Shown piece after piece: positions 53,987 through 59,973 of a stretch of DNA of 64,000 nucleotides. The position numbers were made by a program, and so were the translations under genes. The notes below the pieces were generated by a model, which was not told the DNA's origin, did no database searches, and saw nothing but the letters and a program-made list of their open reading frames with translations. Within the stretch, counting starts at the first letter, position 1. The number at the start of each line of letters is the position of its first letter. Origin of the DNA: Variovorax sp. MHTC-1 (lineage in GTDB: Bacteria > Pseudomonadota > Gammaproteobacteria > Burkholderiales > Burkholderiaceae_C); NCBI RefSeq assembly GCF_003984645.1, contig NZ_RWKI01000005.1, forward strand, positions 248,001 through 312,000, read 5' to 3'.

Positions 53987-55141
53987 ATGTCCGCCGTGTT
54001 CCACCAGCCGTCGCTCGCGCGCCGCATCGCCCCCGTGTTCCAGGGCTTCGACGGCTTTCTCGCTTTCGCCGTGCTGCTGCTGGCTTGCGCCGGCATGCTG
54101 ACCATGTATTCCTCGGGCTTCGACCACGGCACACGGTTCGCGGACCACGGCCGCAACATGCTCCTGGCGGGCTTCATCATGTTCGTGGTGGCGCAGGTGC
54201 CGCCGCAGCGCCTGATGTTCTTTGCCGTGCCGCTTTACGCCTTGGGCGTGGGGCTGCTGATCGCGGTGGCGCTGTTCGGCATCACCAAGAAGGGCGCCAC
54301 GCGCTGGATCAACGTCGGCATGGTGATCCAACCGAGCGAAATCCTGAAGATCGCGACGCCGCTGATGCTGGCCTGGTGGTTCCAGCGCCGCGAGGGCCAG
54401 TTGCGCACGCTCGACTTCGTGGTTGCCACCGTGCTCTTGGCGGTACCGGTCGGCCTGATCATGAAGCAGCCCGACCTCGGCACCTCGCTGCTGGTGCTCG
54501 CGGCCGGCCTGTCGGTGATCTTCTTCGCCGGTCTCTCGTGGAAGCTGATCATCCCGCCGGTGGTGATCGGTGTGATCGCGGTGGCGATGATCGTGGGATT
54601 CGAATCGCAGCTGTGCGCCGACGGCGTCGACTGGCGCGTGCTGCACAACTACCAGAAGCAGCGCGTCTGCACGCTGCTCGACCCCACCAAGGACCCGCTG
54701 GGCAAAGGCTTCCACATCATCCAGGGCATGATTGCGATCGGCTCCGGCGGCGTCGGCGGCAAGGGTTTCATGCAGGGCACGCAGACGCACCTGGAGTTCA
54801 TTCCCGAGCGCACCACCGACTTCATCTTCGCGGCCTATTCCGAGGAATTCGGCCTGGTGGGCAACCTGGCGCTGATCGCGGCCTTCATCTTCCTGATTTT
54901 CCGCGGCCTCGCGATCGCTCTGGATGCGCCGACGCTCTTCTCGCGCCTGTTGGCCGGCGCGATGACGATGATCTTCTTCACCTACGCCTTCGTGAATATG
55001 GGCATGGTGAGCGGCATCCTGCCCGTGGTCGGCGTGCCTTTGCCCTTCATCAGCTATGGCGGCACCGCGATGGTGACGCTGGGCCTGGGGCTGGGCATCC
55101 TGATGTCCATTTCGCGCGCCAAGCGGCTGATGCAGTCCTGA
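53987..55141 (+). CDS. rodA: rod-shape glycosyltransferase RodA (SEDS family)
   Basis: 384 residues, about ten transmembrane helices. SEDS motifs: GATRWINVGMVIQPSEILKIA, KQPDLGTSLLVLAAG, GSGGVGGKGFMQGTQTHLEFIPERTTDF-region, [27 protein letters not shown]. It is shorter than the FtsW at 36463 and lacks its N-terminal tail. It polymerises lateral-wall glycan with PBP2; no mrdA or mreBCD gene lies within the window. Confidence 0.94.
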   Translation: MSAVFHQPSLARRIAPVFQGFDGFLAFAVLLLACAGMLTMYSSGFDHGTRFADHGRNMLLAGFIMFVVAQVPPQRLMFFAVPLYALGVGLLIAVALFGITKKGATRWINVGMVIQPSEILKIATPLMLAWWFQRREGQLRTLDFVVATVLLAVPVGLIMKQPDLGTSLLVLAAGLSVIFFAGLSWKLIIPPVVIGVIAVAMIVGFESQLCADGVDWRVLHNYQKQRVCTLLDPTKDPLGKGFHIIQGMIAIGSGGVGGKGFMQGTQTHLEFIPERTTDFIFAAYSEEFGLVGNLALIAAFIFLIFRGLAIALDAPTLFSRLLAGAMTMIFFTYAFVNMGMVSGILPVVGVPLPFISYGGTAMVTLGLGLGILMSISRAKRLMQS

Positions 55142-55162
55142 GCGCCATTCGAGGTGCGAGCC

Positions 55163-55168
55163 TAGAAT
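55163..55168 (+). promoter_or_regulatory. -10 TAGAAT six bases before tldD
   Basis: TAGAAT, CCCTTG, ATG (55175). No ribosome-binding site. Confidence 0.5.
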
Positions 55169-55174
55169 CCCTTG

Positions 55175-56635
55175 ATGATTTCACGCGAACCCACCATCGA
55201 GCGCCTCGCCACGGCGCAGCAGCTCCTGCTCACGCCCTTCGGCCTCGACGAGTCGCACCTGTCGCGTGCCCTGGCCGAAATCACCGCCCACAAGGTGGAC
55301 GACGCCGATCTCTACTTCCAGTACACGCGCAGCGAGGGCTGGAGCCTGGAGGAAGGCATCGTCAAGACCGGCAGCTTCAGCATCGACCAGGGTGTCGGCG
55401 TTCGCGCGGTCAGCGGCGAGAAGACCGCGTTCGCCTATTCGGACGACATCTCCGAAGCCTCGCTGCTCGATGCGGCCCGCACGGTGCGCACCATTTCAGC
55501 CGCCGGGCGCAATGGACGAGTGAAGGCCCCGGTGCGCAAGGTCGCGACCAGCCGTTCGCTCTACGGAGGCGTGGACCCGATCTCGACGCTCGACAGCACT
55601 GCCAAGGTCGAGCTGCTCGGCAAGGTCGAGAAGCTGGCGCGTTCGAGGGATCCGCGGGTGGCGCAGGTCATGGCCGGCCTCGCGAGCGAGTACGACGTGG
55701 TGCTGGTCGCGCGCGCCGACGGCACGCTGGCGGCCGACGTGCGGCCGCTGGTGCGGCTGTCGGTCACGGTGATCGCCGAGCAGAACGGCCGACGCGAGAT
55801 GGGCTCTGGCGGCGGCGGCGGCCGCTTCGGCCTCGCCTACTTCGACGATGCGCAGATTGCCGAGTACGTCGACCAGGCCGTCCAGCAGGCGCTCACCAAT
55901 CTGGAATCGCGTCCCGCGCCGGCCGGCGAGATGACCGTGGTGCTCGGCCCGGGCTGGCCCGGCATCCTGTTGCACGAGGCCATCGGCCACGGACTTGAAG
56001 GCGACTTCAACCGCAAGGGCTCGAGCGCCTTCTCGGGCCGCATCGGCGAGCGCGTGGCGGCCAAGGGCGTGACCGTGCTGGACGACGGCACCATCGCCGA
56101 TCGCCGCGGCTCGCTCAACGTCGACGACGAAGGCAACGCGACGCAGCGCAACGTGCTGATCGAAGACGGCATCCTGAAAGGCTACATCCAGGACTCGCTC
56201 AACGCGCGCCTGATGAAGGTTCCGCCCACCGGCAACGGCCGCCGCGAGAGCTACGCGCATGTGCCGATGCCGCGCATGACCAATACCTACATGTTGGGCG
56301 GCGACCGGGTACCGGAAGAAATCGTCGCCAGCATCAAGAAGGGCCTCTATGCCACCAACTTCGGCGGCGGCCAGGTCGACATCACGAGCGGCAAGTTCGT
56401 GTTCTCGGCCAGCGAGGCCTACTGGGTGGAGAACGGCAAGATCCAGTATCCGGTGAAGGGCGCGACCCTGGTCGGCAACGGCCCCGATGCGCTGACGCGC
56501 GTGACGATGATCGGCAACGACATGGCGCTCGATTCGGGCGTCGGCACCTGCGGCAAGGAAGGCCAGAGCGTGCCGGTCGGCGTGGGCCAGCCCACGCTGC
56601 GCATCGACGGCCTGACAGTCGGCGGCACCGCCTGA
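55175..56635 (+). CDS. tldD: metalloprotease TldD
   Basis: 486 residues from the ATG at 55175 (a TTG immediately before is also in frame). Zinc site HEAIGHGLEGD (about residue 267), DDADLYFQYTRSEGW at the N-terminus, and GVTVLDDGTIADRRGSLNVDDEG, TNTYMLGGD. With TldE (PmbA, not in the window) it degrades unfolded peptides and matures microcin-like peptides and CcdA antitoxin in E. coli. Confidence 0.95.
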   Translation: MISREPTIERLATAQQLLLTPFGLDESHLSRALAEITAHKVDDADLYFQYTRSEGWSLEEGIVKTGSFSIDQGVGVRAVSGEKTAFAYSDDISEASLLDAARTVRTISAAGRNGRVKAPVRKVATSRSLYGGVDPISTLDSTAKVELLGKVEKLARSRDPRVAQVMAGLASEYDVVLVARADGTLAADVRPLVRLSVTVIAEQNGRREMGSGGGGGRFGLAYFDDAQIAEYVDQAVQQALTNLESRPAPAGEMTVVLGPGWPGILLHEAIGHGLEGDFNRKGSSAFSGRIGERVAAKGVTVLDDGTIADRRGSLNVDDEGNATQRNVLIEDGILKGYIQDSLNARLMKVPPTGNGRRESYAHVPMPRMTNTYMLGGDRVPEEIVASIKKGLYATNFGGGQVDITSGKFVFSASEAYWVENGKIQYPVKGATLVGNGPDALTRVTMIGNDMALDSGVGTCGKEGQSVPVGVGQPTLRIDGLTVGGTA

Positions 56636-56671
56636 CGCCCGCAAACAACAGCCCGGCCCAAAACCCTGTGC

Positions 56672-56677
56672 TACATT
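56672..56677 (+). promoter_or_regulatory. -10 TACATT before the aroG leader peptide
   Basis: TACATT lies 8 bases before the leader-peptide ATG (56686), so transcription should begin at or just before that ATG. Confidence 0.5.
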
Positions 56678-56685
56678 CGGCCCCT

Positions 56686-56760
56686 ATGTCTTCGCGCGTC
56701 GCGTTTTTCTTTTCGTACTTTTGGTTCCCGGTTTCCGGCGGACGAGAGGCGAGCGCGTAA
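56686..56760 (+). CDS. 24-residue aromatic-rich leader peptide of the aroG attenuator
   Basis: ATG to TAA encodes 24 residues: MSSRVA, then the stretch FFFSYFWF, then PVSGGREASA. Seven of eight consecutive codons (56704-56727) specify Phe (five), Tyr (one) or Trp (one). The peptide lies between the tldD stop and aroG and is directly followed by a strong intrinsic terminator. A stalled ribosome at the aromatic codons would leave the CCGGCGG segment (56735-56741) free. It is analogous to PheL/TrpL leaders; regulation by Phe supply is inferred. Confidence 0.85.
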   Translation: MSSRVAFFFSYFWFPVSGGREASA

Positions 56761-56792
56761 AGCACACAGAAACACCCTCCCAAAACCGCCGG
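56735..56792 (+). promoter_or_regulatory. antiterminator pairing of the aroG attenuator
   Basis: CCGGCGG at 56735-56741 (within the leader codons for VSGG) is fully complementary to CCGCCGG at 56786-56792, the 5' arm of the terminator. Formation of this alternative hairpin would prevent termination. A ribosome reaching the TAA at 56760 would cover the upstream arm. Confidence 0.65.
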
Positions 56793-56817
56793 CGCCTCGA
56801 GCCCCGGCGGTTTTTTT
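56782..56817 (+). terminator. intrinsic terminator of the aroG attenuator
   Basis: AAAACCGCCGG and CCGGCGGTTTT flank an 11-base loop and run into seven T residues (56811-56817). It is the clearest Rho-independent terminator in the window, placed after the leader peptide and 36 bases before the aroG start. Confidence 0.9.
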
Positions 56818-56852
56818 ATGCCCCGATGATTTTCAAAGTGAAGGAAGAAGCG

Positions 56853-57971
56853 ATGAGCACGAGCACTGCCCCGGCCACCGAGAACTGGTATGCGAGCGTC
56901 GAGAAAACCAGCCGAACCGACGACGAACGCATCAAGGACATCACCGTGCTGCCCCCTCCCGAACATCTGATCCGCTTCTTCCCGATCCGCGGCACGCCGG
57001 TCGAATCGCTGATCACGGGTACCCGCCGCACCATCCACAACATCATGGCTGGCAAGGATGACCGGCTGCTGGTCGTGATGGGGCCGTGCTCCATCCACGA
57101 CCCGGCTGCCGCGCTCGACTACGCACGGCGCCTGAAGGCCGAGCGCGAAAAATACGCCGGCACGCTGGAGATCGTGATGCGGGTCTACTTCGAGAAGCCG
57201 CGCACGACGGTCGGCTGGAAGGGGCTCATCAACGACCCCTACCTCGACGAGAGCTTCCGCATCGACGAAGGCCTGCGCATCGCGCGTCAGCTGCTCATCG
57301 ACATCAACCGGCTGGGGCTGCCGGCGGGCAGCGAATTCCTCGACGTGATCTCGCCGCAGTACATCGGCGACCTGATTTCCTGGGGCGCGATCGGCGCCCG
57401 CACCACCGAGAGCCAGGTGCATCGCGAGCTGGCTTCGGGCCTGTCGGCTCCGATCGGCTTCAAGAACGGCACCGATGGCAACATCCGCATCGCGACCGAC
57501 GCCATCCAGGCGGCGGCGCGCGGCCACCACTTCCTCTCGGTGCACAAGAACGGGCAGGTGGCGATCGTGCAGACCAACGGCAACAAGGACTGCCACGTGA
57601 TCCTGCGCGGCGGCAAGGCGCCCAACTACGACGCCGCGAGCGTGGCCGCCGCCTGCCAGGACCTCGAAGCCGCCAAGCTGCCGCCGACGCTGATGATCGA
57701 CTGCAGCCATGCCAACAGCAGCAAGCAGCACCAGAAGCAGATCGACGTCGCCATGGACATCGCCGCGCAGATCACGGGCGGCGGCAAGAGCGTGTTCGGC
57801 GTCATGGTCGAGAGCCACCTGAGCGCGGGCGCCCAGAAGTTCAGCGCCGGCAAGGACCGCGTGGTCGATCTGGAATATGGCAAGAGCATCACCGATGCCT
57901 GCCTGGGCTGGGACGATTCAGTCCGGGTGCTGGAGCTGCTGTCGCGGGCCGTCAAGCACCGCCGGGGTTGA
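56853..57971 (+). CDS. aroG: 3-deoxy-7-phosphoheptulonate (DAHP) synthase, class I, AroG type
   Basis: 372 residues from the ATG at 56853 with AAGGAA upstream; an in-frame ATG 27 bases earlier lacks a ribosome-binding site. TIM barrel: IMAGKDDRLLVVMGPCSIHDP, MRVYFEKPRTTVGWKG, GAIGARTTESQVHRE, KNGTDGNI, DCSHANSSKQ, MVESHL. It condenses PEP and erythrose 4-phosphate, the first step of aromatic amino acid synthesis. Placement behind a Phe-rich attenuator supports the Phe-responsive isozyme. The 3' end is 3 bases from the convergent cupin gene. Confidence 0.94.
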   Translation: MSTSTAPATENWYASVEKTSRTDDERIKDITVLPPPEHLIRFFPIRGTPVESLITGTRRTIHNIMAGKDDRLLVVMGPCSIHDPAAALDYARRLKAEREKYAGTLEIVMRVYFEKPRTTVGWKGLINDPYLDESFRIDEGLRIARQLLIDINRLGLPAGSEFLDVISPQYIGDLISWGAIGARTTESQVHRELASGLSAPIGFKNGTDGNIRIATDAIQAAARGHHFLSVHKNGQVAIVQTNGNKDCHVILRGGKAPNYDAASVAAACQDLEAAKLPPTLMIDCSHANSSKQHQKQIDVAMDIAAQITGGGKSVFGVMVESHLSAGAQKFSAGKDRVVDLEYGKSITDACLGWDDSVRVLELLSRAVKHRRG

Positions 57972-57974
57972 AGC

Positions 57975-58475
57975 TCAGATCAGCTTCGCCAGCTCCGGCC
58001 AGTGATGGCGCATCTGCGAAGCTTCGTCGCCGTCGGGCTGCATGAACGAGAAATCGTTGAAGTCGAAGCCGGGCCCCACGGTGCAGTTGACCAGGGTGTA
58101 GTCGGCGCTCCCTGGGCTCACCAGGGGCCTTGCCGCCTGCCAGCGGCCTGCCGTGACGGTGTGCTGGGGATGCGTGCCATGCACGTCGACGGGGCCGAGC
58201 CGGATGTAAGCGGGCGGTGTTCGCAAGGCCGCGTCGCTGGTCCATAGCGCCAGCGGTGCGCCTTCGAGATGGACCCAGACTTCGTCGGACAGCACGCGGT
58301 GCCAGCGCGAATGCTGATGCGCCTGGAGCAGGAAATAGATGGTGGTGAGCGCTCGCCGGGCAGGCCGCCCGTCGGCCGGCGCCACCTGCGCGCTCGAGCG
58401 GAACACCTCGCGAAACCAGCCGCCCTCGGGATGAGGCTGCAGATTCAGGGTGTCGATGAGCTCCTGTGCGCGCAT
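57975..58475 (-). CDS. DUF985 cupin-fold protein
   Basis: 166 residues from the ATG at 58475; the frame runs 13 codons further upstream but through the promoter. QPHPEGGWFREVFRS, TIYFLLQAHQHSRWHRV, DEVWVHLEGAPL, GPGFDFNDFSFMQ match the RmlC-like DUF985 family of unknown function. -10 CAAAAT lies six bases before the ATG. Confidence 0.87.
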   Translation of the reverse strand: MRAQELIDTLNLQPHPEGGWFREVFRSSAQVAPADGRPARRALTTIYFLLQAHQHSRWHRVLSDEVWVHLEGAPLALWTSDAALRTPPAYIRLGPVDVHGTHPQHTVTAGRWQAARPLVSPGSADYTLVNCTVGPGFDFNDFSFMQPDGDEASQMRHHWPELAKLI

Positions 58476-58479
58476 GGGC

Positions 58480-59973
58480 CTATTTTGCCGCGCCTGTCGC
58501 GCGCAAGGCGGCAAGAAGCTTCTCGTGGACGCCGCCGAAACCGCCGTTGCTCATGCAGACGATGTGATCGCCCGGCCGCGCTGCTGCAGCGATCTGCGCC
58601 ACCAGCGGCTCGACCGCGCCGGCCACCTGCGCCCGGGCGCCCATCGGCGCGAGCGCGGCAGCAGCGTCCCATTCCAGCCCGCCGCTGTGGCAGAAGGCGA
58701 GGTCGGCCGCTTCCAGGCACCACGGCAGCTGGGCTGCCATGGTGCCCAGCTTCATGGTGTTGCTGCGCGGCTCGAAGGCGGCCAGGATGCGCTCGCCCTG
58801 GTGACCGTCGGCGTCGAGCTTCTTCCGCAGGCCGTCGAGCGTGGTGCGGATCGCCGTCGGGTGGTGCGCGAAGTCGTCGTAGACCGTGATCGCTGCGCCG
58901 TCGCGCGTGATTGTGCCGCGCAGCTCCATGCGGCGGCGCACATTGCGGAAGCTCGCCAGGAAGCCGGCCGCTTCGGCGGGCGCAACGCCCACGTGCTCCG
59001 CGGCGGCGATCGCTGCGAGCGCATTCATCTGGTTGTGCAGGCCGGACAGCGCCCATTCGACGCGCCCGACCCCCTCGCCTTGGCGCAGCACGTCGAAAGC
59101 GTCGTGCGGCCCATGGGCCTGCCATTCGCCGCCGGCGCCGAAGCGGGCCAGCTCGCTCCAGCAGCCCTGGGCCAGCACGCGCTGCAGGCTCTCTTCGGTC
59201 GCGTTGACTACCACCCGTCCCGTCCCCGGCACGGTGCGAACGAGGTGGTGGAACTGCCGTTCGATCGCCGCCAAGTCGTCGAAGATATCGGCGTGGTCGA
59301 ATTCCAGATTGTTAAGGATCGCTGTGCGCGGGCGGTAATGGACGAACTTGCTGCGCTTGTCGAAGAAGGCGGTGTCGTATTCGTCCGCTTCGATCACGAA
59401 TGTGGCCCCCACGCTTGCCACTTCGTGTGCTGCGCTGCCCCTCGAGGGCGCGCTCGCTTGCTTGAGGCGGCCCGGCGCTGCGCTCGGGCGCCCCATGCTT
59501 CCCAGCCGGGCCGAGACGCCGAAGTCGAGCGGCACCCCACCCACCAGGAAACCTGGGGCCAGGCCGGCCCGTTCGAGGATCCAGGCCAGCATCGAAGTGG
59601 TGGTGGTCTTGCCGTGCGTGCCGGCGACGGCCATCACGTGGCGGCCCTGAAGCACGTGCTCTGCCAGCCATTGCGGCCCGCTGGTGTAGTTGGCGCCGGC
59701 CTCGAGGATGGCTTCCATCAGCGAGAACTTGGGCGTGCCGTCGGCGAGCCGCGCGCGGGACACCACGTTGCCGATCACGAAAATATCGGGCCGCAGCGCC
59801 ATCTGGTCGGCGCCGTAGCCCTCGATCAGCTCGATGCCGAGCGAACGCAGCTGGTCGCTCATCGGCGGGTAGACGCCGGCATCGCAGCCGGTCACCCGAT
59901 GGCCGGCTTCGCGCGCCAATGCAGCGACACCGCCCATGAAGGTGCCGCAGATGCCGAGGATGTGAATATGCAT
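58480..59973 (-). CDS. mpl: UDP-N-acetylmuramate:L-alanyl-gamma-D-glutamyl-meso-DAP ligase with repeat-derived insert
   Basis: 497 residues against about 455 in E. coli. HILGICGTFMGGVAALAREAGH, ATP site [76 protein letters not shown]. About 31 residues (158-190) between ARLG and FVIEADEYD come from a family A repeat. It recycles the murein tripeptide onto UDP-MurNAc. -10 TAGAAT lies six bases before the ATG. Confidence 0.93.
   Translation of the reverse strand: MHIHILGICGTFMGGVAALAREAGHRVTGCDAGVYPPMSDQLRSLGIELIEGYGADQMALRPDIFVIGNVVSRARLADGTPKFSLMEAILEAGANYTSGPQWLAEHVLQGRHVMAVAGTHGKTTTTSMLAWILERAGLAPGFLVGGVPLDFGVSARLGSMGRPSAAPGRLKQASAPSRGSAAHEVASVGATFVIEADEYDTAFFDKRSKFVHYRPRTAILNNLEFDHADIFDDLAAIERQFHHLVRTVPGTGRVVVNATEESLQRVLAQGCWSELARFGAGGEWQAHGPHDAFDVLRQGEGVGRVEWALSGLHNQMNALAAIAAAEHVGVAPAEAAGFLASFRNVRRRMELRGTITRDGAAITVYDDFAHHPTAIRTTLDGLRKKLDADGHQGERILAAFEPRSNTMKLGTMAAQLPWCLEAADLAFCHSGGLEWDAAAALAPMGARAQVAGAVEPLVAQIAAAARPGDHIVCMSNGGFGGVHEKLLAALRATGAAK
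58482..58487 (-). promoter_or_regulatory. -10 CAAAAT before the cupin gene
   Basis: On the minus strand CAAAAT, AGGCCC, ATG (58475). It lies inside the 3' end of mpl. Confidence 0.45.
59405..59497 (+). repeat. palindromic repeat family A in frame inside mpl
   Basis: GGCCCCCACGCTTGCCACTTCG, TGTGCTGCGCTGCCCCTCGAG, GGCGCGCTCGCTTGCTTGAGG, CGGCCCGGCGCTGCGCTCGG. It reads as the intergenic copy at 28397-28472 and runs antisense to mpl without breaking its frame. Confidence 0.85.

Follow-up and report, generated by a model that had tools for sequence, protein, structure and literature searches.

A candidate ribosome-mediated transcription attenuator with a Phe/Tyr/Trp-rich leader peptide upstream of aroG, conserved across its bacterial family

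The DNA directly upstream of aroG in the analyzed window, a 64,000-nucleotide stretch of Variovorax sp. MHTC-1, carries a short leader ORF rich in aromatic codons followed by an intrinsic terminator. With a probability of about 90%, we read this arrangement as an attenuator through which a translating ribosome would couple aroG transcription to the supply of charged aromatic tRNAs. Attenuation of this type had been proposed from the single sequence (hereafter the original prediction), and sequence comparison supports it through the presence of leader and terminator in all 116 orthologues read in the window's family and through the co-variation of the competing stems.

The features are arranged in the order tldD, extended -10 box, leader ORF, terminator and aroG, with tldD ending at 56635, directly upstream of the leader region:

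56667..56677, + strand: extended -10 promoter TGTGC-TACATT (TGTG extension 56667-56670; -10 box TACATT 56672-56677, 8 nt before the ATG); TGTG and TANANT strongly conserved in 111 aligned family members
56686..56760, + strand: leader ORF MSSRVAFFFSYFWFPVSGGREASA, 24 aa (ATG 56686, TAA 56758-56760), probably leaderless; an aromatic-run ORF in 116/116 orthologues
56716..56727, + strand: putative sensor codons Tyr-Phe-Trp-Phe (YFWF), the last four aromatic codons, based on footprint arithmetic; YFWF in 71/116 leaders
56724..56734, + strand: segment 1, 5' arm of the predicted protector hairpin 1:2 (fold -11.7 kcal/mol; swap tests)
56735..56749, + strand: segment 2, 5' arm of the predicted antiterminator, within the ORF (CCGGCGG 56735-56741 and GAGAGG 56744-56749)
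56775..56792, + strand: segment 3, able to pair with segment 2 or segment 4 (CCCUC 56775-56779 and CCGCCGG 56786-56792)
56782..56817, + strand: intrinsic terminator 3:4 (stem 56782-56792/56804-56814, T run 56811-56817)
56804-56810, + strand: segment 4, CCGGCGG, inside terminator 3:4
56853..57971, + strand: aroG, 3-deoxy-7-phosphoheptulonate (DAHP) synthase, 372 aa (NCBIfam TIGR00034 above cut-off, Pfam PF00793)

The NCBIfam and Pfam profiles identify AroG as a type I DAHP synthase, and the gene has its own Shine-Dalgarno (SD) site (AAGGAAG near 56841-56847). The 5.88 Mb genome encodes a second DAHP synthase, 57% identical and without a leader. In a 14-sequence aroG tree, the closest named relative was Variovorax paradoxus ISL-3 (95% identity over 748 columns).

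Codons 7-14 of the leader read FFFSYFWF, i.e. five Phe, one Tyr, one Trp and one Ser, and rereading left the original description of a 24-codon ORF with this aromatic run unchanged. With seven aromatic codons in nine, it was the sole ORF of 12-45 aa in the window to reach at least five, and 20/20 shuffled windows lacked any ORF having seven in nine. The terminator stem comprises 11 bp (7 G-C, 4 A-U) plus two inner pairs, has seven T on its 3' side, and folds at -21.3 kcal/mol; none of 200 shuffles was as stable. The predicted terminator and its T run therefore stand, while the G-C core measures 7 bp instead of the 8-bp GC stem first described. A simple promoter/terminator scanner listed neither a promoter nor a terminator at the leader, probably owing to an apparent loop of 11 nt (scanner limit 8) and the absence of a -35 box. 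Folding of the whole leader in the single window was not unusual (z -0.51, 54/200 shuffles as good), and the single-window folds of protector (z -1.41) and antiterminator (z -1.25) were no better than shuffles. The evidence for these two helices comes from the comparison of species and not from single-window folds.

The family sample comprised 120 genomes from 119 genera, 119 of which gave an AroG match. Three genomes (G061, G067, G102), whose best AroG match was weak or resembled the second copy, were left out, and the upstream DNA of the remaining 116 orthologues was read (30 loci and 86 regions). All 116 carried an aromatic-run leader ORF and a terminator before aroG, with a GGCGG- or AGCGG-type 3' arm and a T run; judged from these sequences, such conservation goes far beyond chance. 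Comparison of the tldD-aroG interval in relatives, suggested at the outset as a check, found the aromatic run and terminator kept in all 116, with co-varying competing stems. Leader and terminator were found in none of 15 regions examined upstream of second DAHP synthase copies (L002, L118-L131; many more such copies exist). A search of the window's own genome with a covariance model built from the 116 leaders (R1) returned the element at E 1.9e-22 followed by six weak matches (best E 0.05), and so gave no sign of a second copy.

At least seven Phe, Tyr or Trp in nine codons occur in 80/116 leaders and at least four in all of them, with a mean content per leader of 4.52 Phe, 1.56 Tyr and 0.96 Trp (n=116). 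All three residues are present in 106/116 leaders, and at least one is missing in the other ten. The codon counts (TTT 320, TTC 204, TAC 128, TAT 53) show that third bases vary while the residue stays. The Phe codon bias is opposite in the two reading frames, with TTT:TTC at 320:204 in the leaders and TTC:TTT at 371:75 in aroG coding stretches of the same loci; the preference for TTT perhaps keeps the sensor stretch unfolded or slow.

When the named genomes were scanned with a degenerate DNA pattern for the core of the leader, at least 120 stretches matched. Among the 120 matches listed, 115 were followed by a same-strand aroG no more than 900 nt away, three were cut by contig ends, and two (L317, L324) look like chance. 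Carriers among the matches listed included Variovorax, Hydrogenophaga, Comamonas, Delftia, Ottowia, Limnohabitans, Polaromonas, Rhizobacter, Piscinibacter and Rubrivivax. One of the stretches with the pattern (L271) lies in a contig labelled as a Desulfovibrionaceae MAG, probably a binning or labelling error.

The comparison of these leaders supports three mutually exclusive helices: a protector (1:2), an antiterminator (2:3) and the terminator (3:4). Segments 2 (CCGGCGG...GAGAG), 3 (CUC...CCGCCGG) and 4 (CCGGCGGUUUU) could be placed in all 116 sequences. The outer 2:3 helix forms 7/7 pairs in 80 sequences, six in 27 and five in nine, and 3:4 forms seven pairs in 84, six in 31 and five in one. 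The complementarity of CCGGCGG to the 5' arm of the terminator, from which a possible antiterminator had been predicted, is borne out by pairing and co-variation across relatives. The antiterminator is longer than the 7-bp match originally noted, extending through GAGAGG/CCCUC pairing and an inner part. The original prediction had missed the protector hairpin, in which the final Phe/Ser codons would pair with a stretch further along the ORF; its core, UUCUC with GAGAG, occurs in nearly all members of the two largest groups. The antiterminator region folded at -24.2 kcal/mol on average and the terminator at -19.0 kcal/mol (n=116), and the former was at least as stable as the latter in 96/116.

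Pairing with a sequence's own partner was compared with pairing after partner swaps, which keep kinship and therefore overstate independence. Across the family (n=116), own and swapped values were -13.43 and -12.69 (sd 0.17) for 1:2, and -11.19 and -9.77 (sd 0.21) for the inner 2:3 helix (22 nt after segment 2 against 22 nt before segment 3); for these two helices and the outer 2:3 helix alike, 0/200 swaps were as good. The outer helix was retested with segment 2 placed by GAGAG only (n=105), because that segment had first been chosen for its pairing with segment 3, and the result held (own -15.76, swapped -14.59, sd 0.14, 0/300 swaps as good). In 35 loci outside the family, the three helix tests gave own values of -12.79, -13.51 and -10.19 against swapped values of -11.02, -12.24 and -8.84, again with 0/200 swaps as good in each. 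No signal emerged when the entire 5' part of the ORF was paired with segment 2 (own -7.94, swapped -7.98), or when the 1:2 test was narrowed to the 10 nt preceding segment 2 (own -6.15, swapped -6.05, sd 0.13). With segment 1 placed at the final aromatic codon, own pairing was -9.55 against swapped -8.96 (sd 0.16) and shuffled -7.11 (sd 0.20), and a two-state switch lacking the protector hairpin was dropped once this placing had been made.

At the level of single pairs, segments 2, 3 and 4 change together, with CCGGCGG/CCGCCGG/CCGGCGG in some sequences and CUGGCGG/CCGCCAG/CUGGCGG in others. The underlying replacement of C-G-C by U-A-U across the three segments was seen in 16 of 36 loci, namely the 35 read outside the family plus L135, also of another family. 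Pair 4 of 2:3 is A-U for G-C in six sequences, in which segment 4 keeps G (G-U), and G-U in two; pair 3 is A-U for G-C in two sequences (L106, L117). Under these compensations in 2:3, the pairing of segment 4 is kept by G-U or the segment is changed. Mapped on a crude tree of about 100 AroG residues, U-A-U requires approximately six changes and the A-U at pair 4 about two. Single mismatches are occasional and fall mostly on pairs 1 and 2 of 2:3. The phase in which the ORF reads segment 2 varies (93, 22 and 1 sequences), and since the segment is kept in all of them, the tail of the ORF is held as RNA and not as peptide.

For the footprint arithmetic, the ribosome edge was assumed to lie 15 nt from the first P-site base. 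For a ribosome whose A site holds the final aromatic codon, this edge would fall no more than 3 nt from where segment 2 begins in 105/116 leaders. When the A site is on one of the last four aromatic codons, at least 4 nt of segment 1 would be covered, compared to fewer than 4 nt for earlier codons; a ribosome at the stop codon would cover on average 17.2 of the 23 nt of segment 2. By this geometry, only the last four aromatic codons can block 1:2, a limit that had been missed by the original prediction. Phe, Tyr and Trp are all found among these four codons in 82/116 leaders, with one missing in 34/116. Together with the frequency of YFWF, this limit makes it probable that Phe, Tyr and Trp are all sensed.

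The -10 box noted eight bases before the leader ATG was found there in the window, and the distance from the end of the box to the start codon is 5-10 nt in 111/116 relatives (7 or 8 nt in 96); five leaders have no close -10. Nothing was conserved at -35 across the 111 aligned family members. SD-like motifs precede 0/116 leaders versus 93/116 aroG genes, and a TANNNT box at the corresponding distance precedes 111/116 leaders versus 0/116 aroG genes, with the leader starts chosen partly with the -10 in view. Based on the close -10 and the lack of SD-like motifs, leader translation in the window's family probably needs no Shine-Dalgarno site and begins on an mRNA whose 5' end is at the leader AUG or close to it. 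Among carriers as a whole, the sequences indicate that this leaderless arrangement is not universal: a close -10 box was found in 17/35 loci outside the family, a few of them poor matches, and in 0/11 loci of family f31, taken to be the Burkholderia family. Read by eye, these f31 loci (L353-L363) have no close -10 and a 5' UTR, yet no obvious SD, and several show a -10-like TAAAG(T) about 35-40 nt upstream of the ATG.

Outside the family, R1 matched 60/200 genomes of the order at E<=0.01, the weaker matches often covering the terminator only; the 30 loci returned from this search all lie before aroG. In an order census of 110 genomes, AroG was matched in 87, and 84 of these fall outside the window's family. 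Of the 84, 73 were read (13 previously matched by R1 and 60 fetched); leader and terminator were present in 23 (13 + 10) and absent in 50. In f31, R1 matched 28/41 genomes, and all 11 loci read lie before aroG. Two f31 genomes of 1.7-1.9 Mb (L173, L174) have no leader, and their AroG is about 75-77% identical to that of the window and closer to it than those of other f31 members; aroG may have been transferred, or small genomes may have lost the element. A class-wide search matched 15/232 genomes at E<=0.01. Three of them belong to the window's family, two (G460 and G324, both family f60) gave full-length matches before aroG, and ten matched parts of R1 only, mostly the terminator end.

These data bear on other explanations of the locus. 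The hairpin could serve only as the terminator of tldD, with the aromatic ORF being incidental, as tldD ends directly upstream and TldD was found upstream in 24/30 long loci. However, the leader persists in the 6/30 loci without detected TldD in about 1.3 kb of upstream DNA, which indicates that the element goes with aroG; the same holds for 34/86 regions, a less telling count with only about 0.2-0.35 kb upstream. The interval from tldD to the ORF contains a -10 box in 111/116, and ORF, segment 2 and 1:2 are conserved. The simple tldD-terminator reading is refuted by the promoter and by the conservation of ORF and segment 2, and we consider this explanation highly improbable.

A riboswitch or protein-binding leader for an aromatic ligand would share the terminator/antiterminator architecture while operating independently of translation, so that the ORF would be fortuitous. 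The strongest upstream conservation of primary sequence is, however, a coding pattern with synonymous third-base variation right after an in-frame ATG, and the Rfam search gave no match at E<=1 save one unrelated match below threshold, which leaves very little weight on such a sensor. The strong conservation of the aromatic peptide block and of its register to the RNA helices would also be expected if, as in TnaC, the nascent peptide arrested the ribosome on a free aromatic amino acid or metabolite and not on tRNA shortage. Yet the block begins at about codon 5-8 of a peptide of 18-29 aa, which is short for arrest in the tunnel, and the residues after the block vary with the reading frame; arrest of this kind is hardly to be expected here.

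From the anatomy, conservation and alternative-helix co-variation observed, we infer the start site, stalling, termination and physiological response of the attenuator as follows. Transcription would start at or a few bases from the leader AUG, as judged from the -10, and 70S ribosomes would translate the leader without a Shine-Dalgarno site. With ample charged Phe-, Tyr- and Trp-tRNAs, the ribosome would reach the stop codon and cover segment 2, which would fold back on segment 1 after ribosome departure. In either state, segment 2 would be withheld from segment 3 and the 3:4 terminator would form, releasing an RNA of ~132 nt. If one charged tRNA is short, the ribosome would presumably stall on YFWF, covering segment 1 and leaving segment 2 free; 2:3 would form in place of the terminator, and aroG would be transcribed.

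DAHP synthase controls carbon entry into every aromatic amino acid, and the E. coli isoenzymes are controlled by the TyrR and TrpR repressors. In the window, one isoenzyme gene appears to be under a single RNA switch reading Phe, Tyr and Trp tRNAs, and the model makes the sharp prediction that only the last four aromatic codons count. Since the element is so widely kept in the family, it offers natural variants for testing, which could also address whether a ribosome start without SD sets the timing of attenuation. In Ralstonia solanacearum, fusions of aroG1 and aroG2 were up ~10-20 fold when the other gene was deleted and 2-3 fold down with 1 mM Phe (PMC6379268); attenuation and a leader are unmentioned for these genes in the accessible parts of that paper. 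As far as those parts go, the lacZ data may fit a sensor needing more than Phe, if the leader is present there.

Searching 54000-59000 against Rfam 15 at E<=1 returned only a DnaX frameshift element at 58411-58447 on the - strand (19.9 bits, below the gathering score of 35), probably a chance match. Pfam and NCBIfam profiles assigned the 24-aa peptide to 0 families, short peptides being hard for profiles. In open papers, we came across neither an attenuator nor a leader peptide described for the DNA in front of aroG in these bacteria. The comparative attenuator studies of Vitreschak (2004), Lopatovskaya (2010) and Merino may already contain a bare prediction of the site. An aroG leader is unmentioned in the accessible parts of PMC2965389, PMC4833913, PMC1183508 (which names the pheA attenuator) and PMC3110155, and likewise in those of PMC1173090, which lists predicted tyrA-operon attenuators.

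Compared with known systems, the element would count among the classical four-segment ribosome-mediated attenuators, and within the reach of the open literature it is new for this gene and lineage, and in the window's family a probably leaderless one with a three-amino-acid sensor. The pheA (pheL) and pheST (pheM) attenuators of enteric bacteria combine a Phe-rich leader, a terminator and an antiterminator. The aroG element resembles them in its Phe-rich leader ORF, terminator, competing antiterminator and presumed use of the ribosome as sensor, but differs in the gene controlled, which encodes the DAHP synthase that opens the shikimate pathway, in the addition of Tyr and Trp to the sensor block, and in the lack of a Shine-Dalgarno site before the leader. 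In E. coli, trpL forms the four-segment switch 1:2, 2:3 and 3:4, with sensor codons near segment 1. The aroG leader shares this switch and sensor codons overlapping the approach to segment 1, whereas its segment 1 lies directly at the last sensor codon and its sensor codons specify three amino acids. Several sensor amino acids are also found in the ilv (branched-chain) and thr (Thr/Ile) attenuators; here too, one leader would sense several end products, with Phe/Tyr/Trp instead. Finally, the trp leader RNA rnTrpL of Sinorhizobium meliloti has its 5' end at the leader ORF ATG and is leaderless, and this leader RNA and its peptide peTrpL were shown to act in trans (PMC7298713, as far as its accessible parts go). 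By analogy, the terminated ~132-nt RNA, which would accumulate at ample aromatic supply and be both a leaderless mRNA and a small RNA, or the aromatic peptide could act in trans on other genes, which we consider unlikely; if true, one element would report aromatic supply beyond aroG across the family. The predicted leaderless leader peptide is the feature that the aroG element shares with the S. meliloti trp attenuator, while gene and amino acids are different.
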